A stretch of 64,000 bases of DNA from assembly GCA_900095095.1 (NCBI GenBank), contig FMBT01000391.1, forward strand, positions 62,001 to 126,000, read 5' to 3'. Under the pieces are notes generated by a model, which was not told the DNA's origin, did no database searches, and saw nothing but the letters and a program-made list of their open reading frames with translations. Below, one piece after another: positions 1 through 29,060 of this stretch (its first letter is position 1; each line of letters begins with the position of its first letter). The translations under genes were made by a program, and so were the position numbers. The stretch is from Fragilariopsis cylindrus CCMP1102 (lineage: Eukaryota > Bacillariophyta > Bacillariophyceae > Bacillariales > Bacillariaceae).

Positions 1-3000
1 GTTTCAAAAGTTTGAACACATGCTGTCTGGACTTAATATTTTCACTCATCCAGTCATTGGCATGCGCCCAAAACATATTTCCAGAAAACACAACTCCAAG
101 AACAACAAGACCTCCTCCGGAAGCCATCTACATGTCTTCTTTGCACGCAAGCGCAGTAGGAAGAGGCGCTCTGTTATCTTAGGACCAATTCCAAACTTGG
201 TGAATGATAACAGTTGTACTGATAGCAATCGAACCAAGGATCGAACCAATACTAATACCCAGTCTCGATCCAAGAACCAAACCAAGATCCCTATTACCCC
301 TCCGAATACGTCGGTCATCTATCCTATAGATGATCCATCATGTCAAGATATCACATGGTATGATGCCATCTCTCCTTACTGGACTGGTGGTATGATTTGG
401 GACGGCGCCTATGTCCTTAATCATCAGGTTGTTTCTGTTACAACTGATCCTATCTTTGTTTCTGATTTACTTCCAGCATTTGAATTGTCTGCTACAATTC
501 AAACACCGAAAGCAAGGAGTGGGGGTAAGCATGTCGGCCCACGGACCACCATTGCTATTGATAGCGGATCTACTATTCACATCTTCAAGGATGCCTTCCT
601 TCTGGCTGACATCCAAGCTGATGAAAACAGTTCTATTTCTGTACGCACTACAGATTCGAAGTTCCAAATCAAGGATATCGGACGTCTATGTGATGACCTT
701 GACACTTTGCCTCTCCCATCTGATGGTTACTATTTCTACCCTAATGGAGTGGCTAACTTGCTATCACTGGCCATGCTAACTGATACCAAGCGAGTTGTTA
801 TGGATGAGGATCAGCATATTGTCATGGCACATCAAACCGTAAAAGGGGAGAGTGCACACTTTTCTGCAATTGATTGTAGAAGAGCAGCAAAAGTCAGAGA
901 TCTCCAAGAAGTGCTAGCATGTCCTAGTGACTTTGACCTGGCTAATGCAATTGAACATAATGTCATTGGCAACAGCCCTTTTACTAGAAGGGATGTGCGT
1001 ATCGCCAAGAAGATATTCGGACCTGATGTACCAGCAATGAAAGGAAAGACTGTCAAGAACAAGAGCATTATGCCAAGAGAAGATGACGTAACAGACGTCC
1101 CACCTTTCATCATGAAAGAATACTCCAACGTCCACCTAGCAATTGATATCATGCATATCAATGGAATCAAGTTTCTTATATCGTACTCCAAGCATATTGG
1201 TCTGATACAAACGTACTGCGTTCGAAAGAACAATCGCGATGCCATACTGGCATGCATCCTAAAGATAATACAAACATACAAAAGTAGGAGTGTATTTAAG
1301 GTTGTAACGATTGAAGCAGATGGTGCATTTGAATGCATCAAGCATGAGCTACAAGACAAGCCATACAACATCACACTATCAACGTGTGATGCAGGTAGGC
1401 ACGTTGAGACCGTCGAATGACAAATTAGATTCCTCAAAGAAAGAATCAGAGCAGTAAGACTAATGATGCCTTATAAGAAACTTCCAAAGCGTTTCACTGT
1501 TGAAATGGTCCTCCGAGTTACAATGTTAATCAACTCATTACCGAAACAGAATGGCATCCATTCCGTATTATCTCCAAGAGAAATAGTAACAGGAAAGAAG
1601 TTTAGATGCCCCACTATCAAGGTAGGGCAGTATGTTCAAGGACATACTGGGGGAACAAACAGCACTGATGAAGAGAGATCTATCGATGCCCTGTACATCG
1701 GTCGCGCTGACAATGGTAGTGGTCATGTTGTATTCAAGTTGAACACCAAGCAACCTGTATCCGTTAATCGTGTTACAATCATCCCAACGACTGATGCACT
1801 AGTCAATACTGTCACTAACATTGGAGAGCAAGAACAACAACCGGAAGGAATTGAATTTGCCGACATCAATGGAAGAGTCACGTTAGATGACTTTGCTGCT
1901 AATGTAATCAATGACGATGACAGTAATGCCTCTGATACTGATTTCAAAATGGATGAGGAATATCGAGAGGAACTTCAAAAGGAGTTGAAGCTCGAGGCGA
2001 AAGACAAGACGATTAAAGAATCGGATCCTGACTCAAAAGGATTTGGCAGTGACAGTGATGTCCCTGACTCGCAAATCGACTTCTTTCAGAACCCAATACA
2101 GCAACACAACAGAGACACTCTTAATGAAAATGAAGATGAACCTGTTATCCTTGAAAGTCGCACTCAACGTCAAAGCAGGAGTGTGGAAAGGATAAGAAGA
2201 AGAACAAGAAGAGACCCATCCTTGAAGAAGATGCAAATCTAATCGAAGATGATCTTGATGATGATGATATGATGCAATCCAGCATAGCATCTAAAGATGA
2301 CACTATTACTAGTGATGCATCTGAAGAAGAAGAAGAAGAGAAACCTTCCATACCCCATGAACTTGGTTTCAATAGGGGGTTAAAGGAATTCGGCGCAATG
2401 GGATATGAAGCAACTATGAAGGAGCTTGATGACAACCTCCTAGGAATGGGAGCAGTGAAGATGTTATTACCATCGGAAGCAAGCCGTTCAATACGATTCG
2501 AAGCCCTAAACTATCTTATGTTCCTAAAAAGAAAAAGATGTGGAAAGGTTAAAGCAAGAGGATGTGCGGATGGGAGACCCCAACGTGAATACATATCAAA
2601 AGATGAGTCCAGTTCACCAACTGTATCTATATATGCTCTAATGACATCCTGTCTAATGGATGCTATTGAAGGCAGGAAGGTTGCTACATGTGATATACCA
2701 GGCGCTTTCCTGCAGGCTGATTACCCAGCTGATAAGGACTGTTACCTCAAGTTCGAAGGAGCAATGGTGACAATGATATGTGCCATTGATCCTAAATACA
2801 AGCAGAATATAGTGGAGAGGAATGAAAAAGAATATGTATATGCCAAACTGACCAAGGCCGTATATGGTACACTCCTTGGAGCTATCCTATTCTACAAGAA
2901 GCTCAGTAAGCAATTGATTGAATGGGGGTATGAACCAAACTGCTATGATAGATGTACTTTCAACAAAATGATTGAAGGGAACCAATGCACTATCCAATTT

Positions 3001-3724
3001 CATGTGGACGACCTGAAAATATCGCACATGAAGCAATCTGTAATAGACTCAGTACTTGATGATGTAAACAAAGAATTTGGTACCATCAAGAAGCCATTAT
3101 CAGCTACCACTGGTGACATACATGACTACCTCGGCCTGACCATTGACTAAAGTGAAAAGAACAAGGTTAAGTTCACTATGTATGACTATCTAGAAGACAT
3201 ACTGGCCGAAATGCCAAGCGATATGAATGGAACCGCTCCCACACCAGCTAGTGATAATCTGTTTGATGTGGATGAGGATTCAGAACTATTGAATGAAAAA
3301 GAAGCAGATTTCTTCCACCGATCGACAGCTCGGTTGTTGTTTGCTGCTAAGAGGGCAAGACCAGATCTTCAAGTGGCTGTTGCTTACCTCTGCACCCGAG
3401 TCAAAGCTCCTACACGCTCTGACTATCGAAAGTTGACCAGAGTGATGAAATATCTGAGGTTGACAATATCCATTCCTCTCGTGTTGGGATGGGATGGAAG
3501 TGGAAAACTGTTGTGGTCAGTAGACGCATCATTTGCTATACACAAAGACATGAGAAGTCATACTGGTGCTGTGTTAACATGGGGCCAGGGCGCGCTGATG
3601 TCGATGTCCTTAAAGCAAAAGATCAACACGAAGAGCTCCACTGAAGCAGAACTGGTTGGAGTTGATGACGCTATGAATTTTATTGAATGGATTCAATTAT
3701 TCGTTGGGGAGCAACTCAAGTCAA
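1..3724 (+). mobile_element. Ty1/copia-type LTR retrotransposon fossil, partial
   Basis: Order of parts is protease, integrase, reverse transcriptase, RNase H, which is the copia order; diatom genomes are known to carry many such elements. An aspartic protease motif (DSGST) lies around 550-620, integrase core around 1100-1400 with its C-terminal region beyond, reverse transcriptase around 2500-3150 (catalytic box of the form FHVDD), and RNase H around 3500-3720. The left end lies outside the window and no LTR is seen. The right side stops inside RNase H where a piggyBac-like element begins at a TTAA, and the missing remainder was not found elsewhere in the window. The copy is broken, with roughly three or more breaks in coding. 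With no LTR pair its age cannot be dated; it is older than the transposon inserted into it. Confidence 0.9.
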
Positions 3725-4209
3725 TTAACAGCTTTCAAGCTATAAGGATTTTTTTGCCGATTTCTAATTTTTTTTACTAGTTAATTCACGTGTTATTTTT
3801 CCAAAAAAAATAATTTAACTTAGAAAATATAGCGAATTTTCACTGGTTGATTGCTAGATAAATACAAAATCATTCAGCCTGTTAGATGGCGCTAGATGGA
3901 CTTGAACTAGACACCTCAGTTATTAATAATATCATTCTAGCCAAATCCAATGGATTTTGTGGAAGATTTTATTACGCTGAAGTTAGACAACGGATTTGAG
4001 TACATAAACCATGAAGCGCGCTAAATTAACACGCGCTAAATAGCAGTGTTTTCGATCGAAAATCAAGATTGATAATGGGAAATCCGAGTAACCACACACA
4101 TGCTAATAATATGTGGTCTTCCACTCAACTACAGTAAAAAAGAAGATAACGGACATGATCTCCATTAAACAGAGGTTATATATTACCTGGTTAAGTATCT
4201 ATTCATTTG

Positions 4210-6113
4210 TCATACCAGAAATACCAGAAACAACACTACATTCAGTACTACTGCCTGGTCCTTAACTGCATTACAAAGCCACATATCGTATCCCTTCTCA
4301 ATAGTACACTCCTCACACTTATAGTTTGTTCTATGTGCTCTTCTTGGTTTCAGTGGTTTATTCAAACCAGGGCACAACTTGTACTTGCAGTATACCTTAT
4401 TAGGAAGCACCATTGCTAACGATTGATGACGTCTCCCCGGCAGTTGCTTCATTACTTTACGAAATTTCTTCTTCTGTCTATAGATAGTACTTTTATCTAT
4501 AGACGATATAGATGATTGGGGAGTACGTGCATGCATTCCTCCAGTCCCATTGGCTCCTGGAGAAGAAAATGGTTGGATAACTGAATCAGATCTTATACTT
4601 CTACCATCCACAGATGTAGAAGTAGTAATATCCTTTGTGGCGCTTGGAGGAGCGCCATAATCCCGCTGTCACATAGGATCACCTCTTTGAAGAAGAGAGT
4701 GTGTCAAATTATGTATGCATTCTTTCAAAGGCATACATTTCCTGTCAGGATGGACCATCTTATAAATAACACAGTACAGCTTGTAAGCATTGTTAAGATT
4801 CATATTGAAGTAACGGGCTGCTAACTTGGGAGCCCAACCATGGAGATGGGATTCAGTTGATAGGTCATACTTGGCTTCGGCCCATTGCCTTTATCAATCT
4901 TGTGATAGGTGTTGCAGTAGTCAATCTGTTGAGCATTGCAATCAACATCAGTTTGGTCCCTAGATCGTTTGCCGGTGACTGGATCTCTTACTCGTCTCTT
5001 CATTCCACCCTCAACAATAGTAGGAGAGTGAAAATTAGAAAGTGTCTTGACAAAGTTGTTGTCAGCCCAAACAGCATGCACAATTGGCTTGGTCTTGTGT
5101 TGGTAGAGGAGAGACTTGTGTGTGCCCTTCACGAGTTCCTTCTCCTTGATAGCAAGCTTGCCTAACTTTCCACCACCAGTCCGAGACGATTGACAAGTAC
5201 CAACCATGTTAATACCCCACTCCTCTCTTCCAACTTGACACATGGCATCACCCATGTAAGCAGAATCCATGACAACACAATGACCCTTATGTTTGTAAGG
5301 CTCAAGCATAAGGTCATAGAGAGACACCATCTTGAGTTTCGTTGCAGTATGGCTGCAACGAACGTCCACATCCTCATCAAATCTACCACCATAGACCCTA
5401 GCAAACAACTTGTATGTATGTAGGGGACTTTCAGTGATACAGACAGTATGTAGAGTAGCACCAGTTCGAATTGGTTTTGGCTCTGGTCCTATAGTCATGA
5501 CACTATGATACCAGCCAGCCACTCGACTCTCATCAGTTGTGATCCATCTTCCAGCATGAACTACAGCTTGCCACCGCTTGTAAGTAGTAAGTAGAAGAAG
5601 AAGAAGGAAGGTAGGTTAGTAATTGATTCGAAACATGATAATAACAACAACAACAACACTACATACCTTATTATATGCATCTTCTAATATACCAAACTTC
5701 AATCGATGTACTGCCATATTAGGGTCAGCATCGACTTTAGTTTCATATATATCCAGCCAATCATCAGCTCCCATAAGGTCCCAATCGTCACTGTAGTGAA
5801 GGCAGCTAGTCATATCTTCCAAAGCATCTCCTTGCCGTACGACTTCAAAAGGGAGATTGAATGATTCAATGGTAGAGTGCTGTGTGTTGCAGTATTCAAG
5901 GATTGCATCATATGCAATGAGATACTGATCATCATCATCTTGATCATCCAATTCAATAAACCATTTTTGGTTCACTATATCAAACGACATTATCTTACCA
6001 TCATGTTTATATGATCCAGTATAACCAACCCACCAGTGGTCGGGTATCTTCACAGATAGTCCTACTAGTGAATCGGCCCATTCTACATCAATTTTCTTTG
6101 TCCTAGGTGCCAT
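4210..6113 (-). pseudogene. piggyBac-like transposase, copy A (broken)
   Basis: Exon 1 starts at the ATG at 6113 (MAPRTKKIDVEW) and ends at 5667. A 90-bp GT-AG intron (5577-5666) follows, and exon 2 continues from 5576. The DDE/DDD domain is recognisable: first Asp in TTDESR, second in CVVMDSAYMGD, third in ADNNFVKTLSNFH, as in piggyBac D268/D346/D447. The C-terminal cysteine-rich domain (CKYKLCPG, then YKCEECTIEKG, WLCN) is at 4250-4450. Compared with copy C, exon 1 lacks a large internal segment (about 190 residues) after residue 110. A one-base loss near 4890 shifts the frame after KIDKGNG. The gene end is also damaged. It is non-functional as it stands. Confidence 0.8.
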
Positions 6114-6410
6114 TGTAGTTGAATATTTTTAATTATATTTCTTACTGGATTGTAATATTATGAAAATACGTAAAATGCGTGGTAAAGTTAACGAAAATAG
6201 CTAGTGACTAAATATTCAAAGCTAGTAGTTACTTAGTATGAAAATTTGAAATATTTAGTTGAAAAAAAGGATTTGTTAGTAAATTTTGCTAGTTATTTTC
6301 CCAAAAGTTTACAAGACTGACCATTTGACTCATATTTTTGATGCGTTGATCGCCTCTTTTTTGTGTGACTTCAACAATTTTTCAAATTTTGAGTCTTGGA
6401 CGCGAGTCAC

Positions 6411-7006
6411 ATTGCGCTTCAGTGGGCATTTGTTTCAACCTGCAACGGAGTTTGCTTTCATTTAAATTTGTACAACCGCCGGTAGTCTTTCTAGGGTCAG
6501 TGAGTAACAGCCTTTCAGGTTTGTTCCGGCGCTTATGTCATTGTCCTTAAGAAATTAAACAGGCAGGTCTTTCCTGTCGAAGCCTTTAATGACATCTTCC
6601 AGATCTCTTCCTGGATGAGATTGCGCTTCAGTGGGCATTTGTTTCAACTTGCAACGGAGTTTGCTTTCATTTAAATTTGTACAACCACCCGTAGTCTTTC
6701 TAGGGTCAGTGAGTAACAGCCTTTCAGGTTTGTTCCGGCGCTTATGTCATCTTCCTTAAGAAATTAAACAGGCAGGTCTTTCCTGTCGAAGCCTTAATGA
6801 CATCTTCCAGGTCTCTTCCTGGATGAGATTGTGCTTCAGAGTGCACTTGTTTTAACCTGCATCGTAGTTTGCTTTCATTGAAATTTGTTAGACTGAGTAG
6901 TGTGGAAAGAATATCAATAGAGAAATTTTGCCAACAAAAGGCAGAGTAACGAGATAGAACAACCGCCCGTAGTCTTTCTAGGGTCAGTGAGTAACAGCCT
7001 TTCAGG
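6411..7006. repeat. 208-bp tandem repeat, about 2.8 copies
   Basis: Copies begin at 6411, 6620 and 6828 (periods 209 and 208), each opening with ATTGYGCTTC and containing GTCTTTCTAGGGTCAG and GTAACAGCCTTTCAGG. The first two copies are nearly identical. The third is more diverged and has about 60 extra bases before GTCTTTCTAGGGTCAG. The array lies where the 5' subterminal region of copy A should be. Function is unknown; it may be an expanded subterminal repeat or a separate insertion. Confidence 0.85.
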
Positions 7007-7045
7007 CATCAATAAAATACTCTGCACATCTACTTGCTTCAGTTG

Positions 7046-8090
7046 TTAACAGGATTCAGGTTATAGAGAATTTTTTGCCGATTTCTTATTTTTTTAATAG
7101 TAAATTCACCCGCTAATTTTCCAAAAAAAAAAAATTTAACTTAAGAAATATAGCCAATTTTCAGTGGTAGAAAGCTAGGTAAAGACAAAAGCATTCAGCC
7201 TGTTAGTTTGCGCTAGATCGACTCAAACCAACGGCCTCAGTTATTAATAATATCGATCTAGCTAAATCCATTAAGATCTGTAGAAGTTTTTATTACCTTG
7301 AAGTTAGCCAACAGATTTGAGTATATATTTCATAAAGCGCGCTAAATTAACACGCACTAAATACAGTGATTTTCGATCGAAAATCAAGATTGATAACGGG
7401 AAATTTCCGAGTAACCACACACATGCTAATATTATGTAGTCTTCCACTCAACTACAGTAAAAAAGAAGATAACGGACATGATCTCCATTAAATAGAGGTA
7501 ATGAATCACCTGGTTAAGTATCTACTACTCTGTTAGCTCGGATACAACACTATTTTCAGAGGTAAGTACTGGTGATGGTGCTGTATATAATTTCATGTCT
7601 AAATGGTATGCTGCATGACAATTAACCACTGTCTGGATTCCATCCACTGTTTTGATTGAATTACATAGCCAAAAATCCGATCCCTTCTCCATAGAACACT
7701 GCTCACATACATACTTTGATGGATACGCTCTTGGTCTCTTTGCTTCAGTATTGAAAGTCATAGACATCAAGCCAATCCTCATTTCCCATGACATCCCAAT
7801 CATCACTGTAGTGCAGGCAGCTAGTCAAGTCTTCCAAAGCATTCTTTGGCATTGATTCCTGAATCGATGGAACAGCATTAAAGATTTCTCTTGTACAGAA
7901 TATTTGACTCATCGATTGATTTCCAAAAAGCATATGTGAAGCATCCTCTGGCTCTTGGCAATGGACATTCTGGTGAAAATGTCATCAAACTCTTGAGGAT
8001 CATCTTGAAGATCATCATCATTAGGAGGTAGGAGTGTGTCATCATTGTCATGAATGACAGTTGTAACGTAAGAAGGTGTGGTCATCTTAA
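7046..8090 (-). mobile_element. piggyBac-like transposon, copy B, internally deleted
   Basis: TTAA 7046-7049 is followed by CAGGATTCAGGTTATAG and then a 470-bp non-coding stretch matching the 3' flank of copies A and C. Coding remnants on the minus strand join the cysteine-rich C-terminus directly to a segment from the N-terminal half, so the central catalytic region is deleted. The right side ends at TTAA 8087-8090, where a MITE begins. The true right end of copy B was not found beyond the MITE. Confidence 0.7.
7525..8085 (-). pseudogene. piggyBac-like transposase remnant, copy B
   Basis: Reading from the minus strand: an ATG at 8085 opens an acidic, Asp-rich leader (MTTPSYVTTVIHDNDD) unlike the N-termini of copies A, C and D. 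Then comes LFGNQSMSQIFCTREIFNAV and DLTSCLHYSDDWDV, shared with C and D, and then directly the cysteine-rich C-terminal region (YVCEQCSMEKGSDFWLCN, CHAAYH) ending in SVVSELTE at 7525. The catalytic core is missing. The acidic leader may mark a second transposase subfamily or a true N-terminus lost elsewhere. Confidence 0.7.
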
Positions 8091-8637
8091 CAGCTTTCAA
8101 GCTATAAGGAATGTGGTCGTATTTTACGAGTGTTAATAACACGCGATAATTTTCATATAAAAAGATGAAAAAAGATGAAAAACTTTGAAAGTTGATATTA
8201 ATATAAATAAAAACCCAATTTAATACAGATTTGACGCATGAAGACAGCAACCTTATATTTGATCACAGTGGTATGTAGCCATCTCTGGTACAAGAAGAAT
8301 TACGTTATTTCTTATCAGTATATAAATACTTCAACTCTTTATAGATTAAAAAAATTGCGCAGAAAACCACTTAGAATATTCCAAAGGCTTTTACTACTGC
8401 CTGGTTCAATCTCTGCACCTCTTCGAATTTTCAAACTGTTCTGGCCACTAATTAATTTTATTCTCTCGTATAAACGCTGTAGGTGCGTTGGATACAAAGA
8501 AATCACTACATGGCATGTGATCCGCTTGCTATGATTACACAGATAGTCAATATCAATAGTTGATATCATGCGTGCAAGCGAGTGATATAATAACTTGAAT
8601 GAGATAATCACATGCTGGTACGCCTACCGTCTGTTAA
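8087..8637. mobile_element. TTAA-flanked MITE (family member 1)
   Basis: A 543-bp non-coding element (8091-8633) lies between TTAA 8087-8090 and TTAA 8634-8637. It begins CAGCTTTCAAGCTATAAGG and ends in CTG. It shares blocks with the MITEs at 11682 and 13455: AAAAAGATGAAAAA, GATTTGACGCA, AAAATTGCGCAG, and TATAAACGCTGTAGGTGCG. The right terminal repeat is poor beyond CTG. It lies two bases upstream of the ATG of the copy B remnant. It is presumably mobilised by piggyBac-like transposase. Confidence 0.7.
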
Positions 8638-11600
8638 CAGCTTTCAGGCTATAGGGATTTTTTTGCAGATTTCTTATTTTTGGTTCATTTTCATCACTTT
8701 ACGATTCAATAGGAAATATAATCAAAATATTAAGAGTAAAATGGCATAAAATGGCTCCTAGAAGCCCCCAAATTAGTTTAGAATGGGCCAAATCATTAGT
8801 AGGACTGTCTATGAAGGTCCCTGATTACTGGTGGGATGGTTGCAAAGGTTATAGGCTAAATGATGGTGTAATTGATTCATACGATAGTGTTCAACAAAAA
8901 TGGAATTTATTACTAAACAGTAGAGACGATAATGATCGATATCTTATGAATTATACTGCTGTTTCTACCTATGCTGATAACGACTCCTCCACTATTGACG
9001 AGTACCAGCTTTCATTCGCTGCTATCTATGATGGTGATGATATTATTGATGCTAATAATGGCATTAGGTATTTTCGAACACCTCCTTCTGAATGGAGTAA
9101 AGTTGAGTTGGAAGCTGGAGGGTGGAAGAACAATAGATCCGATTGAATGGACTGGAGAGAAGGAGGATATTGTAAATATAACTTAAATATAACTGATGAG
9201 GAGATCGAATCATTAAGAGACATTGATGGAGAGATTCGATTTGAAAAAGTTTTTGAATGGGTTCTTCCAAGGTTTGGTGAAGATAAGAATGAAACTTTGT
9301 TTGATTGGCAAGCTGCAAGAATGAGGAATTACATGAGAAAGAAAGTGGTTGAAGATGGATGGAAACCAAAATACTATCAAGGTGATGATACGATTCAACC
9401 TGATCATGTAGCAAGATTCTATGGTACATTGCTTGCTAAGATGCTAACTGGTAGTCGATCGATTAGTCAAATGTTTTGTACAAGAGAAATCTTCAATGCA
9501 GTACCACTCATTCAAGAATCAATGCCAAAGAATGCTTTGGAAGATCTCACTAGCTGCCTTAACTACAGTGACGATTGGGATCCTATAGGCGACCTTGATT
9601 GGGATGAGGTTTATGATGATCCAAAAGTTGTTGCACCACCACACGCAGCAAGACATAGAGTGAAGCATGGGATATTAGAAGATTGCTATATTCAGGTATG
9701 TAGTATATTTGTTGTTGTTGTTGTTGTTGTTTCGAATCGATTACAACCTACCTTCCTTGTTCTTCTTCTTCTTCTTCTTCTTACAAGCAATGGCAGTACT
9801 GTGTCAACCCATCAAAATGGATCACAACTGATGAAAGTCGAATTTGCAGGCTGGTATCATAGTGCCATGACTATAGGACCAGAGCCCAAACCAATTCAAA
9901 CTGGGGCTACTCTTCATACTGTCTGCATTACTCAAGGTCCTCTCAGCTCATACAAGCTATATGCTAGAGTGTTTGGTGGTAAAGACGATCAAGATATGAA
10001 CATACATAACAGGCATACTGTTAAGAAGTTGAAGATGGTATCACTGTATGATTTTATGCTTGAATCCTTTAAACATAAAGGTCATTGTGTTGTAATGGAC
10101 TCTGCCTACATGAGTGATGCAATGGCTCAAATCGGTCGAAACCATTGGGGTATTAATATGGTTGGTACTTGTCAATCGGATCGAACAGGGGCTGGAAAGC
10201 TTGGCAAGGCTGCTGTCAAAGCAAAGGAAGTTGTTATTGGTAGTCATGAAACTCTTATGTACCAACACAACACAAAGGCCTTGCTTTATACTGTTTAGGG
10301 TGACAACAACTTTGTCAAGACGCTTTCTAACTTCCATTCTCCAGTTGTATTAAGAGGAGAAATGAAAAGGAAGAAAAGAAATCGATCAACCAAGAGAAGA
10401 GATAGAGAGTTTAGTGATGTCGATTGTCCTATACAACAAAAGGATTACTGTGAAACATATCATTTGATTGATAAAGGCAATGGTGCTGAAGCCAAGTATG
10501 ATCTCTCTACTGAATCACATTTGCATGGTTGGTCCCCCAGGTTAGCAGCCAGATATTTCAATATGAATATTAATAATGCCTACAAGATTCATTGTTATCT
10601 GTTTAAGAAGCATCATCCAACCAAAGTCGTAATGCCCTTAAAAGAGTGCATCCATAATCTTACCCATTCACTACTTCAAAGAGGTGATACTATGAGGAAG
10701 AGAGGTAGTGGAGCTCCACCCAATTTCATCATCTGTGGATGGAAGAAAGATTTGATCTGATTCAGTTAGACAACCATTCACCTCTCCTACTGCAACAGTA
10801 ACTGGTACACCCCAAACACCAGTGTCTGGTTTAGGTGCTAGGGCTCTCCAGTATCGACAAGTTGCTTCTAAACTACAAAAGAAACGCCAGCCTGGAAGGA
10901 ATCATATGTCGATTCCAGTGATTGTTAAGAACAATAAGGCTACATCTTATTGCAAGTACCACAAATGCCCTGGTAAGAATACTGGAGCAAAGAGAAAAAG
11001 ACCCTACATGTCAAAGTATGCATGTGAAGGGTGTGGTTTGGAGAAGGGAATCGATTTTTGGCTGTGTAATTCAACCAAGGATGTGGATGGAAATTTGGTA
11101 GTAGTTGATTGTCACACAGCATATCATGTGCAAAAGAAATTATATACAGCACCATCCCCAGTACTTACCACTGAAAGTAGTGTTGTATCCGAGCTAACAG
11201 AGTAGTAGATACTTAACCAGGTGATTCATTACCTCTATTTAATGGAGATCTTGTATGTAATCTTCTTTTTTACTTTAGTTGAGTGGAACACCACATACTA
11301 TTAGCATGTGTGTCGATACTCGTATTTCCCATTAACAATCTTGATTTTCAATCGAAAATCACTGTTTTTAGTGCGTGTTAATTTCGCGCGCTTTATGGTA
11401 TATATACTCAAATCCGTTGGCTAACTTCAAGGTAGTAAAAACTTCTACAGATTCCAATGAATTTGACTAGATCGATATAATTATTTGAAGTGCCTTTGGT
11501 TCAAGTCCGTCTAGCGCAAACTAATAGGCTGAATGCTTTTGTCTTTACCTAGCATACAACCACTGGAAAATAGCATTATTCGCTAAGTTAAATTATTTTT

Positions 11601-11681
11601 TTTCGAAAATTAACACGTGTTTTAACTAGCAAATTTTTCTATAAAAAGACGAAAAAATCCTTATAGCTTGAATCCTGTTAA
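8634..11681 (+). mobile_element. piggyBac-like DNA transposon, copy C, complete ends
   Basis: The element spans 8638-11677 (3040 bp) with TTAA at both ends (8634-8637, 11678-11681). The terminal inverted repeats are about 28 bp: left CAGCTTTCAGGCTATAGGG, right end in reverse CAGGATTCAAGCTATAAGG, both followed by a T-run. It carries one degenerate transposase gene on the plus strand and a 470-bp 3' flank. It is the best template in the window for judging the insertions in copy D. Confidence 0.88.
8751..11205 (+). pseudogene. piggyBac-like transposase, copy C (broken)
   Basis: It starts at the ATG at 8751 (MAPRSPQISLEWAKSL), matching copies A and D. An in-frame TGA lies at 9144-9146. A GT-AG intron (9696-9787, 92 bp) follows EDCYIQ. 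One extra T after the first catalytic Asp motif (TTDESR) shifts the frame. A TAG replaces Trp before GDNNFVKTLSNFH at 10296. The second Asp lies in CVVMDSAYMSD. A further frame change after residue 10760 leads into the cysteine-rich C-terminus (CKYHKCPG, YACEGCGLEKG, WLCN, CHTAYH) ending in SVVSELTE at 11205. All three catalytic Asp positions survive but the gene cannot be read through. Confidence 0.85.
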
Positions 11682-12266
11682 CAGGATTCAGGTTATGGCT
11701 CGGGGTGCCGAGCCACTTTTTGTGATCAATTTTTCTTAGGGGTGTTTCTCCTCCAAAAATCGGACTTACAGCCCCCTATTGAGACACAGCGCGTCTCCGT
11801 TCAACAACGTGTGCTTTCTTATTCAGTGAAAATACACGAAAAGTTCTTTGTATGGTCCGCACCTACAGCGTAATATTGGGCAATAATAATAAATCGGAAG
11901 AGCCCTCTGGGAAAATTTGCGAAGAGGTGCAGGGATTGAATCCGGCACGTGTAATAGTGCGAGGAATATTCTAAGTGATTTTCTGCGCGATTTTTTCATA
12001 ATTCAAATATTCAAAATATTTTCAATATCATACGAGTCAACAGAACTAATCCTGTGGGAGAGTTGGTTACACCCCACCGGGTTTACAGTAGGGACGCTGG
12101 TTCGATCCTTACATGGGTCGAATCTGCACTGATTTGGAATGATGTATTTATTATTATTAGCTTCCAAAGTTTTTCATTTTTTTTCATCTTTTTTAACTGA
12201 AAATTATCGCGTGTTTTTTACTAGTGAAAAATTGCGCAAAAATCCTTATAACCTGAATCCTGTTAA
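11678..12266. mobile_element. TTAA-flanked MITE (family member 2)
   Basis: A 581-bp element (11682-12262) has terminal inverted repeats CAGGATTCAGGTTAT / ATAACCTGAATCCTG and TTAA on both sides. The left TTAA is also the right TTAA of copy C. The right TTAA falls exactly where GTTAAGTATC occurs in the transposase 3' flank of copy A, so the MITE sits in the 3' flank of copy D. It holds a tRNA-like A/B box pair near its right end and a second block (AGGTGCAGGGATTGAATCC) shared with other members. No protein coding. Confidence 0.88.
12055..12108 (+). promoter_or_regulatory. tRNA-like internal Pol III promoter (A and B boxes) in MITE 2
   Basis: TGGGAGAGTTGG at 12055-12066 resembles the A box (TRGYNNARNNGG, one mismatch), and GGTTCGATCC at 12099-12108 matches the B box. 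The spacing from A start to B start is 44 bases, as in a normal tRNA (positions 8 to 52). Acceptor and T stems do not pair well, so this is a tRNA-derived segment and not a working tRNA gene. Confidence 0.65.
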
Positions 12267-13450
12267 GTATCTATTCATTATTTGTTAGTTCAGAAACAAC
12301 ACTACATTCAGTAGCAGCACTTGTATCATAACACATTTCTGCATGATATTGCAAATGACAACTGACCACTGTTTGAACTCCATTAACTTTCTTTGTCGTA
12401 TGACAAAGCCAAAAGAGAATCCTTTTTCCACAGTACACTGCTCACATTGATAGACTGTTTTATAAGGTCTTTTTACTATGGCTTTGCTCTTGAGACCTGG
12501 ACATTTTTCGTATTTACAGTAGGGTCCACTTCCAGGTTTATCATTATCCTTACTCCTTACAAGACATGTCATTGGTTGATGAACACGATCAGGCTGTAGC
12601 TTCTGTCGCTTCTTAAAAGCTTGTTGTTTTTTGAGCTTATTCCTACTACTAACCTCAGTAGTAGAAGACGACCGAGGTGTACCCATATCAGTTCTAGCTC
12701 CTTGGGATGGTGGAGAAGAAAAGGGTTGTCGGATTGAATCAGATCTAATACTTCTACCCTCAGTAGATGTAGTAGCAATATCCTTTGTGGCGCTTGGTGG
12801 AGGTCCTGTACCCCGCTGTCACATCGGATGACCTCTTTGTAGAAGAGAGTGTGTCAGATTATGTATGCATTCTTTCAAAGGCATCTCTTTCCTTCCAGGA
12901 TGAACCATCTTATAAATAAAACAGTACAGCTTGTAAGCATTGTTAAGATTCATATTGAAATAACGGGCTGCTAATTTCGGACCCCAACCATGCAAATGGG
13001 ATTCAGTTGATAGATCATACTTAGCTTCAGCACCATTGCCTTTATCAATCTTATGATAGGTCTTGCAGTAGTCAATCTGTTGAGCATTGCAATCAACATC
13101 AGTTTGATCCCTAGCTCTTCTCTTGGTAACTGGATCTTTTATTCTTCTCTTCATCCCACATCAACTATAGTAGGTGAATGAAAATTAGAAAGCGTCTTGA
13201 CAAAGTTGTTGTCAGCCCAAACAGCATGCACCAATAACTTTGTGTTGTGTTGATAGAGGATAGATTTGTGTGTGTCCTTTTCAATTTCCTTGTCCTTTTA
13301 GCCTGCTTCCCCAAACGTCCACCACCAGTCCGAGACGATTGAACAGTACCAACCATATTAATACCCCACTCTTCCCTTCCAACTTGACACATAGCATCAC
13401 CCATGTAAGCTGAATCCATGACAACACAATGACCTTTGTGCTTCCATGGA

Positions 13451-14001
13451 TTAACAGGATTCCTGTTATAAGGATTTTTTTGCGATTTTGCGCGTGTTAA
13501 AAACACGCGTTAATTTACAGAAGAAATTTCCAAAAATAAGATGAATATCTTTGAAGGTGCAAATATATGTGAAGAGAGTGACAAAACAAATTAAGATTTG
13601 ACGCATTAGCAACTCGAACCCAAGCCTGTCTAGAACGCCCGTTAAGGCATTGCCAACTCAACCACATTGATCAGTAGTTACGTTGATTCATACATTCACT
13701 CAAATTTTTTTTAAGTTTTTAAATTATAAAAATTGCGCAGGCATACACTGAACGTGATACTTAGCGCTAACCGCAAATTTTCCTACTATGGCTCTTCCAA
13801 ATTATTATTATTGCCTCGTATAAACGCTGTAGGTGCGTCCGATACAAAGGAATTTCGTGTATTTTCACTGAATAAGAAAGCACATGCCGGTAAACGGAGA
13901 CGCGCTGTGTCTCAAGCTGGGGCTGTAGGTCTGATTTTTGGGGGAAATATACCCCTACAAAAAAAGCACCCCAAAAAGTGGCAAAACAGGAATCCTGTTA
14001 A
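13451..14001. mobile_element. TTAA-flanked MITE inside transposase D (family member 3)
   Basis: A 543-bp element (13455-13997) has ends CAGGATTCCTGTTATAAGG and AACAGGAATCCTG and clean TTAA duplications (13451-13454, 13998-14001). It lies between the DNA coding for MVSLYN and that coding for HKGHCVVMDSAY, so it post-dates copy D. It is in reverse orientation to member 2 and shares its right-end block (GAGACGCGCTGTGTCTCAA) and the AAACGCTGTAGGTGCG block. A tRNA-like A/B box pair is on the minus strand. Confidence 0.9.
13611..13664 (-). promoter_or_regulatory. tRNA-like internal Pol III promoter (A and B boxes) in MITE 3
   Basis: On the minus strand, TGGTTGAGTTGG (13664 to 13653) matches the A box consensus TRGYNNARNNGG perfectly. 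GGTTCGAGTT (13620 to 13611) matches the B box. The starts are 44 bases apart, as in tRNAs. The T-loop sequence TTCGAGT is well formed, but the stems pair only partly. It occupies the same relative place in the MITE as the pair in member 2. Confidence 0.7.
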
Positions 14002-14896
14002 GCATTACATTGTAAAGAGAGACCATCTTGAGTTTAGTTGCAGTATGGTCGTACCTAACATCGACATCCTCATCATTCTTACCACCATACACCCTAGCAA
14101 ACAACTTGTATGTATGTAGGGGGCCGTTGGTGATACAGACAGTGTGAAGAGTAGCTCCAGTTCGAATTGGTTTGGGCTCTGGTCCTATAGTCATGACACT
14201 ATAATACCACCCAGCAACCCTACTCTCATCCGTGGTGATCCATTTTCCGGGTTTGACTAGCTCTTGCCATCGCTTGTAAGTAGTAGAAGAAGAAGGAAGG
14301 TAGGTTAGTAATTGATTCAAAAGTTAATAACAACAACAAATACACTACTACATACCTTATTATACGCATCTTCCAATAATCCATACTTCAATCGATGTGA
14401 GGCAGTCGATGGATCACATTCAACCTTAGGCTCGTCATAGACATCAAGCCAATCCTCATCTCCCATGACATCCCAATCATCACTGTAGTGCAGACAGCTA
14501 GTCAAGTCTTCCAAAGCATTCTTTGGCATTGATTCTTGAATCGATGGAACAGCATTAAAGATTTCTCTTGTACAGAATATTTGACTCATCGATTGATTTC
14601 CACAAAGCATTTTAGCAAGCATTGCTCCATATAACCTCGCAACGTTGTCCTCTTCAATTTGATTCTCTCAACTGAAGTACTTGGGCTTCCACCCATCTTC
14701 AATCATTCTTTTCTTCATGTAATTTTTCATCCTTGCAGCCTGAAAACTAAATAAAGATTCACTTTCCTCTTCACCAAATCGTGGAAGGCACCATTCAAAT
14801 ACTTTTTCATACCTGATCTCCCTCCTATCATCCATTAACAGTCGAATACCAGCTTGTGTTATGTTAACAGTGAACTCCTCATTTGTTCCAGTCCAT

Positions 14897-15904
14897 TCAA
14901 GGCGCGTTCCAGCTCAAGGTGATATTTTGTGGGACACGCGACTCAACTGCGCGATAGCTCGCGACGACAGAAAATTCTTCAAAATTATTAAGAGTTGAAA
15001 TGGAAAATTATTCACATCAACATGAAAATGGAAATGTATTGAAACGAACCTCCATGGGTATCGCTCTATTTAACATACGCTTATTAGAAGAAATATAGAT
15101 ATTTGTATCGTTAAGAGAAGAAAAAAGTTTGGGTGTGATTTGGTCATCTGGGGAAAATTCTATGAAGATTTATATAGGTGGCAGGCGAATTTCGAATCGC
15201 CAGGAAGAGGTGCATAAGAGAGGGAAGTTAAAAATCAAATAATGGACTAATAGATAAAGTGCTAATCCAGATGTCTCTATTACTGTTATATTAGTCAATG
15301 CGATAATTTGTATAGTTATTAGTACATTAAGAGACGACCCATTATCATCGGGAATATTGGACGTGTTTTTTCGGAAAATCCGATCATGTGTGTCTTTTAC
15401 TAAGAGAGAGTTTACGTACTTAAATATAGATCCAATTCGACCCAAACTTTTTGTCATTGTTAAGAGTACCAAGATCTATATTTCGTCTCATAAGCTTTTG
15501 TTAAATAGATCGATATCCATGGAGGTTCGATTCAATACATTCCCATTATCAAGGTGTTAATAGAGGAAAATTCCTACTTTCACTGCGTTGGTGCGCGGTG
15601 AATTAATTATTTTCAACTTTGTCGAAGTACGCCATATGGGGGAAATTCTCCTTGGAGAAGTACCAGCTTATCTCCTACACTACCTAGACCTGGCAGTAGA
15701 TTGGAATGTGTAGAATGTCTATGGATAGGTACTGAAGAAGGTTTGAGGAGCAACCATACAGTTAAAAATCCCCCCGATTGATGGTACTTTCACTGCATAG
15801 CGCGTGTTGTAGAGGGTGTAAACCAATCCCGCGAACAAGCGTCTGTCCGAAGATTGTCACACAGTAGCGAAAACGGAACCACGTTGAGCCGGAACGCGCC
15901 TCAA
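14897..15904. mobile_element. 1000-bp non-autonomous TIR element with 4-bp target duplication (copy 1)
   Basis: The element is 14901-15900. Its terminal inverted repeats are about 20 bp (GGCGCGTTCCAGCTCAA / TTGAGCCGGAACGCGCC). TCAA is duplicated at 14897-14900 and 15901-15904. Copy C shows the uninterrupted site (CCGATTGAATGGACTGG at the start of its second transposase piece), which fixes both boundaries. It holds long internal inverted arms: 15020-15150 is the approximate reverse complement of 15430-15555, both containing CGAACCTCCATGG on one strand. No coding. Related to the copies at 51707 and 52330. The superfamily is not assigned. Confidence 0.88.
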
Positions 15905-16727
15905 TCGGTTCAATTGGACGTCCACAGCATCATCAACTTGAGACCATTCATCAGTTGGTGTTAGTGAATACAGTGTCCCATTCTCAGTTACAATCTCATC
16001 ATCTCCTTGTCGTACCACCTCATAAAAGGAAGATGGAAGGAATCAATGGTAGAGTGCAGTTTGTTGCAGTATTCAAGGATTGCATCATATGCCATGAGGT
16101 ACTGATCATCGTCATCTTGATCATCCAATTCAATAAACCATTTTTGATTCACTGGATCAAATGAAACTATCTTACCATCATGTAAATATGTTTCAGTATA
16201 ACCAACCCACCAGTGGTCGGGTACCTTCACAGGACATCCTACAAATGAATCGGCCCATTCTATATCAATTTTCTTTGTCCTAGGAGCCATTGTACTGTAA
16301 TATTCTATATTGTAGTTTTGCTAGTTAAGTTTACAAGACTGACCATTCGATCCATATTTTCCATGCGTTGATTGCCTCTTTTTCGTGTGAGTTCAACAAT
16401 TTTTCAAATTTTGAGTCTTGGACGCGAGTCACATCAGAATATTTGACCAAAAATGGCCGTTGTTGTGCGACACATTTTTGCATCTCTCCAATCCAATCAC
16501 TGGTGGGCCGAAATTAAGTAGGTACAGGCACGTGAGGGTGACCGTTGGGCTGTTACAAATCCCAGGGGAGTACTATTAAGTACATAAAAAGACACGTGCA
16601 CTTGAACGGAGAGGTACTGTGTCTCAATAGGGGGTTATAAGACCATTTTTGACTGAATAACACCCCAAAGAAAAAAGTACCCCAAATACCTGCGCCATTA
16701 ATGGAGCAATAGCCTGAAAGCTGTTAA

Positions 16728-17260
16728 AAATAGTGTAAAATGTGTGAATGTAGGATTTTCTGGAAGAGGGGGTGGGGGGGGATTTCTGGTGTTTTATGTC
16801 TAAATTGCCAAAATTTCTTGGTTTTTTGTGTTTTTGGCCAAAATCTGCGTGTAGGATCCTGCGCGTGTAGGATTAATTGAATTCGGGATTCATTCATTCT
16901 TGGCGTGAAGGCGTGAGGAAGAGCAGAGGTGACAACTTGACAACAACAAACAAACAACGAACAAGAACTATCGAACAAGAAAATACCAACGACAAACAAA
17001 GCAAAATATGAACACCACAGTACTACTACAGTAAAGTAACTCTTCTTTACCAACAACCAAACCAAACCAAGCCAACGATCGGAGAGGTGACAGTAAGCAG
17101 AAAGTCAATTCTATTCTATTCAATTCAATTCAATTCAATTCAAGTGAGTAGTAGTAACAAAAAGTTGTAGCTCCTATATACAGTACATACGGGACAGTAC
17201 GGGACAGTACAGTATTATTCTACAAATTAGATACAGAAGATAAAGTAACGATTTATAATT
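16728..17260. other. Upstream region of ATG5
   Basis: No gene is seen. A segment at 16825-16890 is an inverted copy of 24025-24095. A CAATT pentamer run lies at 17113-17143, about 120 bases before the ATG, followed by repeated GGGACAGTAC. Promoter elements cannot be assigned with confidence. Confidence 0.5.
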
Positions 17261-19417
17261 ATGAAATCATCATTATCATCATCATCTTCTTCTGGTAATA
17301 ATCAAAATGATGATGGTGGTGGTAGTGGTGGTGGTGGTGGTGTTGATAAGGAGAAGGACGAGGACGAGGACGTAACAGTAGTAGCAGTAATAGTGGGAAA
17401 GAAAACCTCAACAACGCAAACCACTACTACTTCGTCGTCGTCATCGTCGTCGTCGTCATCGTCATCTGATTATAATTATAATTATAATTATTATAATAAA
17501 ATACGTCAAATCAATTTTAAGGATGGTAAAATACCAATCAGAATATCATTAGGTCAAACATCAGTAGGAACATCCACATCCTCCATACCGGATCCAATAC
17601 ATGTCTTAGTATCACGACAAACTTTTCTACATATTGGATTAGAAGTTGTGGTACGTAAATTATATAACTATTCACCAGATATATATACTACTACTAATGG
17701 TTGGAAAAGTAATTGCAATAGTAATAGTAATGGCAGCAATACTCAACCGTCATCGTCGTCGTCGTCGTCGTCTTCGTCTTCGGCAGCATCATCATCATCA
17801 TCGGCAATCTCTTTTGATCGTAATGGTTCGACACCAATTAAAGTCGTTATTCAAGAAGACGAAGACAGCAGCGGGGATGAAGTTAACAACAAAGTAAAAG
17901 AAAAAGATAACGATAGTCATGCTGATGAGAATGAGAAGAAGAAGAAAGACAAACAGGATATTACTACGGATACGAATACTACTACTCCTGCTGCTGATAA
18001 CGCTGATGACGACGCTGATGACGGTGGTGATGGTGCTTCTGGTGGTGCTGATACTGCTGATGCTGATACTGATACCGATAATACTGATATTAATTCTAAT
18101 TCTTATCCTGTTTGTTGGTTTGAAGATAGTATCACAAAACAACCATTACGATGGCAATATTTTGTGGGTGTATTATTTGATTCGATACATGGTCATCCAC
18201 CATTACAATCATCAACATCAACATCAACAACTAATTGCTTGCCATGGGAAATTACATTACATTTTCAATCGTATCCACATCAGCAATTATTAGAATTGAA
18301 TAATTCAGGCGGCGTAGAAGGTGGTGGTGGTGGTGTAATAGAAACAATTCAACAAACGTATAAAAATTCATTAAAACAAGGTTTATCTATCCAATATGGG
18401 AATCCAAAATATTCACTGAATATGACAAAATTATCGCATATAAAAATATGGAATGCAATAGTATGTCAATGTCAAACCAATGATGGTAGTAATAACAATA
18501 ACAATAACAATAACAATAACGATAACAATAATAGTGATTATTATTTAAATCATATACAGTCAATATTATTAAATCCAAAACCAATTATAATAGAAGTATT
18601 GGACACGACGATGACGACGACTACGAAAGCAACAACAATAACGTCAGCAATAACGTCAGCGTCAGCGACAACTGATGATTCTGAAAATAGCAAAAAAACA
18701 AAATTCAATACCACAAGTTCTGATAATAATGACAACAACAGCAACAACAACAATAAAAATGATAAAAATGATAACAATAACGATTCAGCTTTAGTTTCAG
18801 ATTCAGTTTCGACGAAATGTACTACTACTTCAGCAGCGTTACCTTTACCTTTGACGAATACCAATACCAACATAAATACGAATACAAAAATGAGTAACAG
18901 CAATAATAATAGTATTATAACACGATATACATTCAACAATAAAGATCTTGTTATGATACCAATACGACTATCAATTGATCCAATGAAACCAATGATACAA
19001 AAACGATTTGATTATAATAGAAACGACAATAATAATAATAATGATCCAATGACATTAGGATCATTACTTTGTATTTGGGTACCGCAATATTTCTGTTATT
19101 GTGATGATGACAAGGATGATAATGACGAGAATAATAGAGACGAAAGAACAACACCAAAAAAAACAGTAGTACGAACCAAAACAATCTATGCAAATAAAGA
19201 AGAAGAAGACGACTCGTCTATTATATCATCATCTGATACTAGTCCTACCACTATAACAAAGAATAGCAGCGAAAAAAAGAAGAAGGAATCAATGAACAAA
19301 AAGATATATTGGTGTGTTGCTGGAGTAGTACCACCATTAGAAACATCAGTTATTGATTTATGGTTAGCATTACGTCATCCAGATAATTTTTTATATATTT
19401 CAATAATTATTACCTGA
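17261..19417 (+). CDS. ATG5: Autophagy protein 5 (ATG5), with large low-complexity insertions
   Basis: ATG5 is conjugated to ATG12 and, with ATG16, directs lipidation of ATG8 during autophagosome formation in the cytosol. The 718-residue single-exon protein has all three family regions in order: an N-terminal ubiquitin-like fold from about residue 80 (IPIRISLG, then HVLVSRQTFLHIGLE), a helical middle (PLRWQYFVGVLFD, LPWEITLHFQSYP), and a C-terminal ubiquitin-like fold from about 553 ending in VVPPLETSVIDLW and HPDNFLYISI. The Lys in TYKNSLKQG (residue 368) aligns with the ATG12 acceptor lysine (human K130). Family members are usually about 275-350 residues; the extra length is Ser, Asn, Asp and Thr runs between the domains. 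The start is the first ATG, followed by a Ser-rich leader. Expression control is not visible. Confidence 0.92.
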   Translation: MKSSLSSSSSSGNNQNDDGGGSGGGGGVDKEKDEDEDVTVVAVIVGKKTSTTQTTTTSSSSSSSSSSSSDYNYNYNYYNKIRQINFKDGKIPIRISLGQTSVGTSTSSIPDPIHVLVSRQTFLHIGLEVVVRKLYNYSPDIYTTTNGWKSNCNSNSNGSNTQPSSSSSSSSSSSAASSSSSAISFDRNGSTPIKVVIQEDEDSSGDEVNNKVKEKDNDSHADENEKKKKDKQDITTDTNTTTPAADNADDDADDGGDGASGGADTADADTDTDNTDINSNSYPVCWFEDSITKQPLRWQYFVGVLFDSIHGHPPLQSSTSTSTTNCLPWEITLHFQSYPHQQLLELNNSGGVEGGGGGVIETIQQTYKNSLKQGLSIQYGNPKYSLNMTKLSHIKIWNAIVCQCQTNDGSNNNNNNNNNNDNNNSDYYLNHIQSILLNPKPIIIEVLDTTMTTTTKATTITSAITSASATTDDSENSKKTKFNTTSSDNNDNNSNNNNKNDKNDNNNDSALVSDSVSTKCTTTSAALPLPLTNTNTNINTNTKMSNSNNNSIITRYTFNNKDLVMIPIRLSIDPMKPMIQKRFDYNRNDNNNNNDPMTLGSLLCIWVPQYFCYCDDDKDDNDENNRDERTTPKKTVVRTKTIYANKEEEDDSSIISSSDTSPTTITKNSSEKKKKESMNKKIYWCVAGVVPPLETSVIDLWLALRHPDNFLYISIIIT

Positions 19418-25869: not shown

Positions 25870-28180
25870 TCATTTTTTGCGTGTGTAAATAAATGAATTT
25901 ATTATGTTATTTGTATTTTTTGATGATATCATATTATTGTATTGTATTTCAATCCGAATGGACCACATCCTCCTCTTCCTTCTGTTCACGAATTTTTTTA
26001 ATTCCTTTGCTGCTTTTGCAAAATTAGATATAGATGCCTGTCGTAATTCTTTGGAAGATCCTTGTTGTGTCCATGTATCTGTATACGACACACGAGTACT
26101 ACCACGAGAATTTGCTTTTACTGGCGATACTCTGTTATTGCTGCTGCTGCTGCTGCTGCTGTTGTTACTTTTGCTGCTGCCACCAGAACGTCTCTTCCTT
26201 GTTGACAACGGTACATTTCTCGTGCTGCCACCGGAACGTCTTTTCGTTTTTGACGACAATGATTTTCTTGGTGTGCTGCTGTCTTTGTTGTTGGTCGAAT
26301 TATTTTTTCTTCCTCGTTCCATGATTTCAATGTTTTCAATGATGATAAAGAGACAGAACGTCGTCGTAGCTGATATTGTTGAGGTCGAGATGATAACGTG
26401 TCGTCCTCCTTCTTCTTGTTATTATCATTCTTGTGGTTTTGCCATTCGTTGTTGTCGTAATCCTTATCGTCGTCCAATTCTTGTTTCTTTTCCTTTGCTT
26501 CCTTTTGCATTTGAAGTTGTTGAGTTAAGTATTGTAATGTATGGAATGTTCGTGCTTGGATTCTTGTTAAATTCCCCATCTGATCTTCTAATGTATCAAG
26601 TTGTTCACGTAATTCTAATGGTTCACCATCACCAGAATGATCAGAAAATTTGGAATCATCATTATCATCATCATCATCATCATCACCGTATCGTGCACTC
26701 ACACCCTCTAAGTGAGCTCGTTCTTGTTCGTCTAATGTACCAATTGCATCACAAATAACAGCAATAATTAAATTCACCACCACAAATCCTGATATAAAAA
26801 CAAATACAATAGATGGCAACCATGCCCATTTATTTGTTACCATAATTTCACGTGTTATACCTGACCATCCATCCAATGTCATAAATTGAAATAAGGTTAA
26901 CAACGTTGCGGACAGTGATCCAAAGTAGTCACTTTCTCCAGTTTCAACTTCACTAAATAATTGTGTAAACATAACACCAAAGATGTAGAAAATTAACAGT
27001 AACATTAAAAAGATCGCTGCCATCCTTGGCATAACCTCCACCAGTGCTAAAATTAAATTTCTCATAATTTTAACACGTGTTATTAAACGAAATGCTCTAA
27101 ATATACGAAATGCTCTGATAATTTGTACTGATTGGAATGCCCAACTCATACCAATAATAATTAATCAAATACTAACCACCCGTCATACAATAAATGATAA
27201 CCATGATATATAAATTGCAATACTAATTCAATTGTAAATATAATTAAAAATACTTGGTCAGTTATATCAAATATATTTGACAATGTTGGATTTAATTTAA
27301 TATAATCATATGTTGCAATCCCCATCATAATTGCATTAATTGTTATAAAACCTACCATAATTAATTGTACATATGGATTATTTACAATTTGACCACATTT
27401 CAAACGAAATTTTTGTATTTCATCCAAATATTTATTATTCATAGCACGTGTAGTACTACTACTACTTTCATCGTCGTCGTTGTCTCCGGAATTACTATCT
27501 TCATTATTATTGACGTCATGATCATCATGATCATTTTCCTTTTTGCCGTCCTTCTGGTTCTTGTTGTGCTTCTTCTTCGCATCGGCGAGTGTATTAGTGG
27601 CAAATTCAGGAGGTGCTGCACGTTCATTATTATTGTTGTTGTTATTATTGTTGTTATTATTATCATAGTATTCATTTTCTTCTGTAACAGCACTTATATT
27701 ACTATTAGTACTATTATTATTATTATTATTATTGATCACCACCAATGTTGTTAATTAAATCCTCTGAATAACCAAATTCTATACTTCCTTCGTCTTCTTC
27801 TTCGTCATCTTCTTCATCAACAGTATCAATCAGTCTATTACTATGATTATTTTCAATTAAAGAATCATTAAAACTACCAGTATAAGTATCTTGAATTCGG
27901 TCTTGGTCATTATTGTTTTTCATCCCGCCGCACCGCCGCCGCTACTGCCTCCAAGGCGTCCACCCGTTAATCTATTCATGAGTGATGTTGATATTAATGA
28001 AGTAAATATATCTTCTTCTTCTTCTGATGCTGCTGCTGGTTTGGTTTCAAAAAAGTTAATCTCCACTTCTTCGTGTTCTTCGTGTTCTACGTCGTGTTCT
28101 ACGTCGTCGTCGTCTTCGTCGTCGAGAAGATTATGCTTTCTAGAGGTATTATCGTCTACTGTATGTGTTGAGGATGACAT
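25870..28180 (-). CDS. EukCat-type single-domain voltage-gated cation channel 1 (frame-disrupted)
   Basis: One six-helix voltage-gated channel domain, of the kind that assembles as a tetramer like bacterial NaChBac; diatom EukCat channels conduct Na+/Ca2+ and support fast excitability. The start is at 28180 (MSSSTHTVDD) with an acidic leader. S1 (FITINAIMMGIATYDY) to S3 (DGWLVFD) lie at 27161-27400. S4 (IRAFRIFRAFRLITRV) to S6 lie at 26760-27149. The filter is TLDGWSG where NaChBac has TLESWAS. The cytosolic tail has a coiled-coil-like QLDTLEDQMGNL. The frame changes in the leader, near 27160 (one base missing beside the GATTTA seen in its paralogue) and in the basic tail, which reads best to about 25870. 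Either a recent pseudogene or assembly losses. Divergent from channel 2. Confidence 0.82.
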
Positions 28181-29060
28181 GATGTACTGTAATATTATTT
28201 GTTATCTCGCTGCTGGGCGGAAGTTGTCAATACAAAGCAGATAAACAAAAAGCACTTCGTACAGTACATAAGACGTAAGAAAGTTCATGCATGTACAATA
28301 AATTAGTTAGCATACACGCACGGTAGTTATTCTCCTAAACGGAAGTATGCAGAAAAATGAGGAATATTTTTACTTAAATGCAGATTTTGAGATTTTGTCA
28401 TATACATCTCATTATTAAAAACAAATATAACCTTAAAATAAGGGGTAAGTAAATTTTGTATGAAAACTGCCGTTCTTTGAAAAACTCCGGCCATCTAATT
28501 ATTGTATAAAAAATAATATTTTTTCGAGCATGCGGAGGAGAATTACTTATGGGGACACCGACCACGCATAAGTTTGATCTATCATTATTGTTCACTTCGA
28601 TCGCATACTTACAGTACTTACTTCTAGCTACGGTATTAGTACAGCATAGAGCCAGGCAGCATAATTATTTTTTGCAGCTAGCACATCAGCCAGCCTTTCA
28701 TGCAAAAAGAGTACGGTAGACGACGACGACATCTATCTACTGTATCTATCTATTACAGTATAGAAGTAGTGAATATACGTACAGCAGATAATTCAAATCC
28801 TGCTTTACCAACGCGGCACACGTCACACACTACGGATCAACTGAACAGCGAAAGAAAGAGACGCGACTTTTTTGCTTTCGAAACAAAAAAACACGCACTA
28901 ATAGATTGAATTGAATTGAATTGAGTTGAATTCGAGTCTGTCTAGCATAGGAAAGATCTGATTGTATTCGTGTTCGTGTACGTGTGTGCGTGTTCATCAC
29001 GGAAGTGTCTACAGCAACAACAAAAAACGCCGTTGATTCCAAGAAATTTAAAAAAAAGTC
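28181..29060. promoter_or_regulatory. Shared upstream region of the divergent channel pair
   Basis: About 880 bases separate the start codons of the two head-to-head channel genes. No gene is seen. CGTACAGTAC lies near the channel 1 side (28258), and a GAATT pentamer run (28908-28930) lies about 140 bases before the channel 2 ATG. A bidirectional promoter is plausible but not shown. Confidence 0.45.

Follow-up and report, generated by a model that had tools for sequence, protein, structure and literature searches.

Between positions 3725 and 16727 of the window analysed here, a 64,000-nucleotide stretch of DNA (C809:62001-126000), piggyBac-like elements and MITEs follow one another at close range. 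The initial annotation described them as six elements (A, B, MITE1, C, MITE2 and D) joined by single shared TTAAs. The question raised by this locus is whether the elements were stacked edge to edge, were moved as one block, or came together in another way. The assembly searched comprised 67.9 Mb in 818 contigs. Most of the 13-kb stretch consists of broken copies separated by ordinary DNA, and it holds one clear shared insertion site. With a probability of about 0.8, we regard it as an eroded nest of TTAA-transposon insertions that was cut by deletions and includes one true edge insertion.

Terminal motifs and family assignment

The end motif TTAACAGSWTTCARGYTAT was found 256 times in the genome when up to one mismatch was allowed (125 in forward and 131 in reverse orientation, with redundant contigs counted), and the reversed control pattern was not found at all. 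For end pairing, the first 100 ends listed, all with zero mismatch, were used after removal of eight ends on C449. The remaining 92 ends gave 30 pairs and 32 ends without a partner at that stringency. Seventeen pairs were of MITE size (558–599 bp) and 13 of full size, 12 of which span 3481–3553 bp; the last one, of 3415 bp on C297, is false. Because two ends were mis-paired there, the C297 rows were dropped from the neighbour-distance statistics. All 34 distinct MITE-sized sequences from the fetched loci (540–605 bp; variants on redundant contigs counted separately) have an AAGG-type end on one side and a different end on the other.

Pfam domain DDE_Tnp_1_7 was detected in two of the eight element reading-frame fragments scanned, namely one from A (3.1e-8, 33.7 bits) and one from C (7.3e-8, 32.5 bits; cut-off 22.4). 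The other six fragments, including both from D, had no Pfam match at E≤0.01, and a phmmer search with one transposase fragment against PDB sequences returned nothing at E≤1. Candidate aspartates of the catalytic DDD triad, in the motifs TTDES, VVMDSAYM and WADNNF, were read by eye, as was a putative C-terminal Cys-rich tail. Target site duplication of TTAA is supported by a third MITE (MITE3), which has TTAA on both sides within D, and by the single TTAA at the site of A in Copia copies without A; the MITE set was selected by TTAA at both ends and is therefore no separate test of target duplication. As the ends begin with CAGSWTTC and the terminal motif of piggyBac, CC[C/T]T (PMC2872659), is absent from them, the family is referred to as piggyBac-related and not as canonical piggyBac.

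Truncated elements in the left part of the block

The TTAAs with terminal motifs reported in the initial annotation were confirmed at 3725, 7046, 8087, 8634 and 11678 (there on both sides), as were the right ends of MITE2 at 12263 and of D at 16724. The proposed joining of six elements by single TTAAs did not hold: only at 11678, one of five internal junctions, is there a family end on each side, because the other four adjoin non-family DNA or the interior of D.

TTAA 3725, the insertion site of A, lies inside the reading frame of a 3'-truncated Copia-type retrotransposon fragment (pol; 2155..3728, plus strand; Pfam RVT_2, 2.6e-12). Of seven related Copia loci fetched (L070–L076), three were read across this site (L071, L072 and L074), and all three run on as TTAATCCTGATTC. 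The remainder of the Copia element is missing here, as the 1.5 kb past the site in L070–L075 had no match in positions 1–25000 of the window or in the preceding 10 kb. The 1.5 kb past the site in L076 gave one match, located in a repeat that is nested in D and also present at C294.

The fragment of element A (3725..6412, minus strand) has an intact AAGG-type end, corresponding to the 3' side of the gene, and has lost about 289 bp on the right together with its right end. It also has an internal deletion of about 480 bp that close relatives retain. The family is recent enough that seven of the nine closest relatives of A are 97–99% identical to it (C307, C558, C59, C50, C195, C81 and C54), followed by C279 (96%) and C579 (94%); these values refer to best-scoring pieces over query 302–1308 or part thereof. 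In a search with the right part of A, homology stops at query 299, equivalent to window position 6412, in all 37 rows outside redundant contigs among the matches listed (40 of 55 candidates scored), although the full-length A-type copy C81:112584-116120 continues for about 289 bp past the break to its right end. A right end of A that is merely too diverged was ruled out on these grounds. The right ends of A and B, described previously as weak, are in fact lost, the copies being truncated at 6412 and 7933.

The left neighbour of the A/B junction at 7046 is a 633-bp piece outside the family (6413..7045; genome search and TRF). It matched its own place, two redundant contigs and, partially, C573 (89%, 76%) and C182 (84%) only (six of six candidates scored). 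According to TRF it contains a tandem unit of 209 bp in about 2.3 copies at 94% (window 6411–6888), which starts at most 2 bp from the break of A. On C573, a relative at 89% was found for one of the 209-bp units.

Element B (7046..7933, minus strand) is likewise a fragment with an intact AAGG-type end and a lost right part, and has an internal deletion at 7756/7757. Its positions 7500–7756 are 79–90% identical to other copies (among the matches listed; 40 of 127 candidates scored), and 7757–7933 is a transposase segment with 97.7% identity to D 14434–14610. To the left of the B/MITE junction at 8087 there are 153 bp of single-copy DNA outside the family (7934..8086), for which all three matches in the genome search were its own place and the two redundant contigs.

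The MITE1 fragment (8087..8503) also retains its AAGG-type end and has lost about 170 bp on the right. Its relatives are about 590 bp long, and none of its matches to other MITEs extends past query 417 of 551 (43 rows listed; 40 of 128 candidates scored). None of the 43 listed rows outside redundant contigs reaches query 418–551 in the same search; this part corresponds to 130 bp of non-element DNA (8504..8633), the non-family left neighbour of the MITE/C junction at 8634. Intact left ends combined with lost right ends can create the illusion of a transposon chain. Deletion scars at the A/B and B/MITE junctions had been considered in the initial annotation, and the present data fit such scars.

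Element C, MITE2 and the shared TTAA

Element C (8634..11681, plus strand; 3048 bp) has a transposase frame broken by stops and AAGG-type ends on both sides. The 48-bp AAGG-type end, expected at the 3' side of the gene, lies at its 5' side (8634–8681). In this respect C is unlike the 34 MITE-sized sequences with a single such end, and even its left end may therefore not be its own. The sole shared TTAA in the block (11678..11681) is formed by the right end of C and the left end of MITE2 (11678..12266), a complete element of 589 bp that sits at the edge TTAA of C. At least 23 further places match MITE2 over query 1–589 at 71–84% (40 of 164 candidates scored). The proposal that each insertion used the edge TTAA of an earlier one is borne out at this junction and fails at the other four of the five.

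Element D and its nested insertions

At the MITE/D junction (12263), the right neighbour is the interior of D and not an end. The body of D (12263..16727, minus strand) lacks about 470 bp on the left and has an intact right end. It begins at an internal TTAA of the transposon; the interior sequence there, TTAAGTATC, is also found in A (4191), B and C. In the A/D alignment, D had no counterpart of A 3725–4201 except 39 bp belonging to the end of MITE3. The alignment is broken between 13443 and 14000, at MITE3 (13451..14001), which is nested in the transposase of D; its ends were read directly. A second insertion in D is an unrelated repeat of about 1 kb (14901..15900) with inverted arms at 15023–15134 and 15440–15551. 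Both insertions had been missed at first. The repeat is dispersed, with copies at C294 (82–85%; a single locus, fetched as L026 and L047) and in L076 (86%, 14948–15504). The C294 copy is interrupted by a MITE.

On the right side, the outer TTAA at 16724 adjoins other DNA upstream of an ATG5-like gene. With a Copia element lacking its 3' part around the left outer TTAA and other DNA next to the right one, the two do not represent one target duplication.

The same block on two further contigs

C449 (24,365 bp) and C567 (12,239 bp) repeat the end motifs of the block at identical spacing, as might be expected if the chain transposed as one composite, a possibility raised in the initial annotation. 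However, collinearity with C809 extends through both flanks in C449 (three neighbouring pieces, 99.29–99.93%; reaching 4.7 kb to the left and 6.6 kb to the right of the block) and through the left flank in C567 (two pieces, 99.2–99.8%; 2.3 kb), the right flank of C567 not being visible because the contig ends inside D. Overall identity is 99.2–99.9%, apart from about 80–110 bp between the pieces, left of the block, which are present in C449 and C567 and absent from C809. The block was not found with different flanks, as C449 shares both flanks of C809 and C567 the left one, and movement as a block was rejected for this reason. When the same junctions were looked for at other loci, the 32-bp joint of the block occurred without mismatch on C809, C449 and C567 only. 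We take C449 and C567 to be redundant or allelic contigs; for C449 the shared flanks refute block movement, and transposition of the chain as a composite is highly improbable. Contig redundancy can mimic block movement.

Shared TTAAs in the genome

With up to three mismatches, the 32-place joint pattern matched the joint of the block perfectly on three contigs, and C230/C781 with 3 mismatches. The core 20-mer was found exactly in the block (three contigs), at C297:15423 and at C230/C781, and with one or two mismatches at four places, on C266, C99, C360 and C558. The outer flank of the C266 near-match (L024) is not a family end; the near-matches on C99, C360 and C558 could hide decayed joints. 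Direct reading of the sequence showed an end on either side at the joints of the block and of C297 (L066); C230/C781 is a pattern match only. At L066 (C297:14841-15990) two MITEs meet at one TTAA with the AAGG-type end of each at the joint, making it the cleanest shared-TTAA pair seen apart from 11678.

Exact shared-TTAA joints were thus present at three genome places (one seen on two contigs) versus 256 matching ends, compared with a random expectation of 0.04–0.11 joints for 128–200 elements among 358,000–396,000 TTAA sites. Shared joints are rare, yet above the random-TTAA expectation; the excess is small in number, and the clustering of elements observed on C343, C189 and C297 lies outside the estimate. 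Family DNA was present within 200 bp outside 14 of the 93 fetched ends, eight of these 14 being in the block or in redundant contigs.

The excess over random raises the possibility of edge targeting, in which the transposase would prefer a TTAA bordering a resident relative and copies would stack head to tail. Insertion into the edge TTAA of a relative has already been reported for Pokey elements of the piggyBac superfamily in Daphnia pulex, where about 7% of Pokey and about 23% of mPok copies are described as lying in a TTAA flanking another copy (PMC3849761). Like the present family, Pokey and mPok target TTAA and combine full-size elements with MITEs that have common ends; they differ in the extent of edge insertion, those percentages of copies contrasting with three joint places for 256 matching ends here. 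In favour of edge targeting, CTG, the three bases preceding an edge TTAA, stood before TTAA in 3 of the 89 insertion flanks that are not at joints, compared with 7 of 535 background sites. On the other hand, the flanking bases of these 89 insertions (four joint flanks of 93 excluded) had no strong motif, and relative to ordinary TTAA sites the five edge flanks tested ranked anywhere from the top 3% to the top 44%. A strong sequence preference as the cause of edge use was not seen in the 89 flanks. The strong preference for element-edge TTAAs proposed earlier agrees with the three joint places but not with the block itself, in which one of five junctions qualifies, and the clustering on C343, C189 and C297 also speaks against it. 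Edge targeting is a possible explanation, though less likely than not. With this family, such targeting could be quantified in another lineage in addition to Daphnia.

Tandem arrays of CMITEs in Acropora corals consist of highly similar repeats and were ascribed to replication slippage (PMC2872659). As described there, these are also TTAA MITEs, some of them in tandem and one family tied to a piggyBac-like element; the units of the present block, in contrast, are diverged and represent different elements.

Origin of the block

In the eroded nest that we favour, one TTAA-targeting family with a piggyBac-type transposase and CAG-starting termini would have built the cluster together with its MITEs, landing in TTAAs of the Copia element, of intervening DNA and of one another. 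End-joining deletions would then have shortened A, B and MITE1 on the right and the Copia element at its 3' side. D would have lost its left end and received MITE3, and either MITE2 would have inserted into the TTAA at the right edge of C or C into the left edge of MITE2. The end positions, the truncation points, the missing Copia part, the nested MITE3, the single shared TTAA and the near-identical redundant contigs are observed; the order of these steps and the attribution of every truncation to deletion are what we infer. The scenario is consistent with the truncation points followed by non-family DNA, the Copia copies without A and the missing 3' part, the internal TTAA at 12263, the flanks common to the other block contigs, the rarity of shared joints, and the pairing of ends elsewhere at 3.48–3.55 kb or 558–599 bp. 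It is less easily reconciled with the shared joints in excess of random expectation and with the position of all lost right ends on one side. In addition, the four left-hand ends are all of the AAGG type and share one orientation. Random decay would not necessarily give rise to this pattern or to the one-sided loss. The missing left end of D stops exactly at a TTAA; this is rare for random deletion and would need ectopic exchange between copies or TTAA-precise rejoining. The eroded nest accounts neither for the common type and orientation of the four left-hand ends nor for the loss of the left part of D exactly at a TTAA.

One-ended transposition or misligation of TTAA overhangs would generate units composed of an AAGG-type end and the DNA up to a chance TTAA, joined to one another at TTAA. 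The AAGG-type ends at 3725, 7046, 8087 and 8634, all in one orientation, would fit such units, and at each of the first three a truncated element follows, with non-family DNA after it as far as a TTAA; the two AAGG-type ends of C, unlike all 34 MITE-sized sequences, and the start of D exactly at a TTAA would fit as well. However, the genome search yielded no copy from which the 153-bp piece could have come, C573 has a relative of the 633-bp piece and no match to A among the matches listed, and it would not be improbable for three elements to lose the same side by chance. We consider this origin of the block unlikely. It is equally doubtful, if not slightly more so, that the four ends in one orientation, the two AAGG-type ends of C and the TTAA start of D record one-ended or TTAA-overhang-joined events by which a CAG-ended piggyBac-related transposase captured and stacked flanking DNA. 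The eroded nest is retained as the preferred reading.

Neighbouring genes

The ATG5-like gene (17249–19417), which contains long low-complexity stretches, lies just to the right of the block. Further to the right, matches to the ion-channel family Ion_trans were found in reading frames 26118–27164 and 29052–31370, located on opposite strands.
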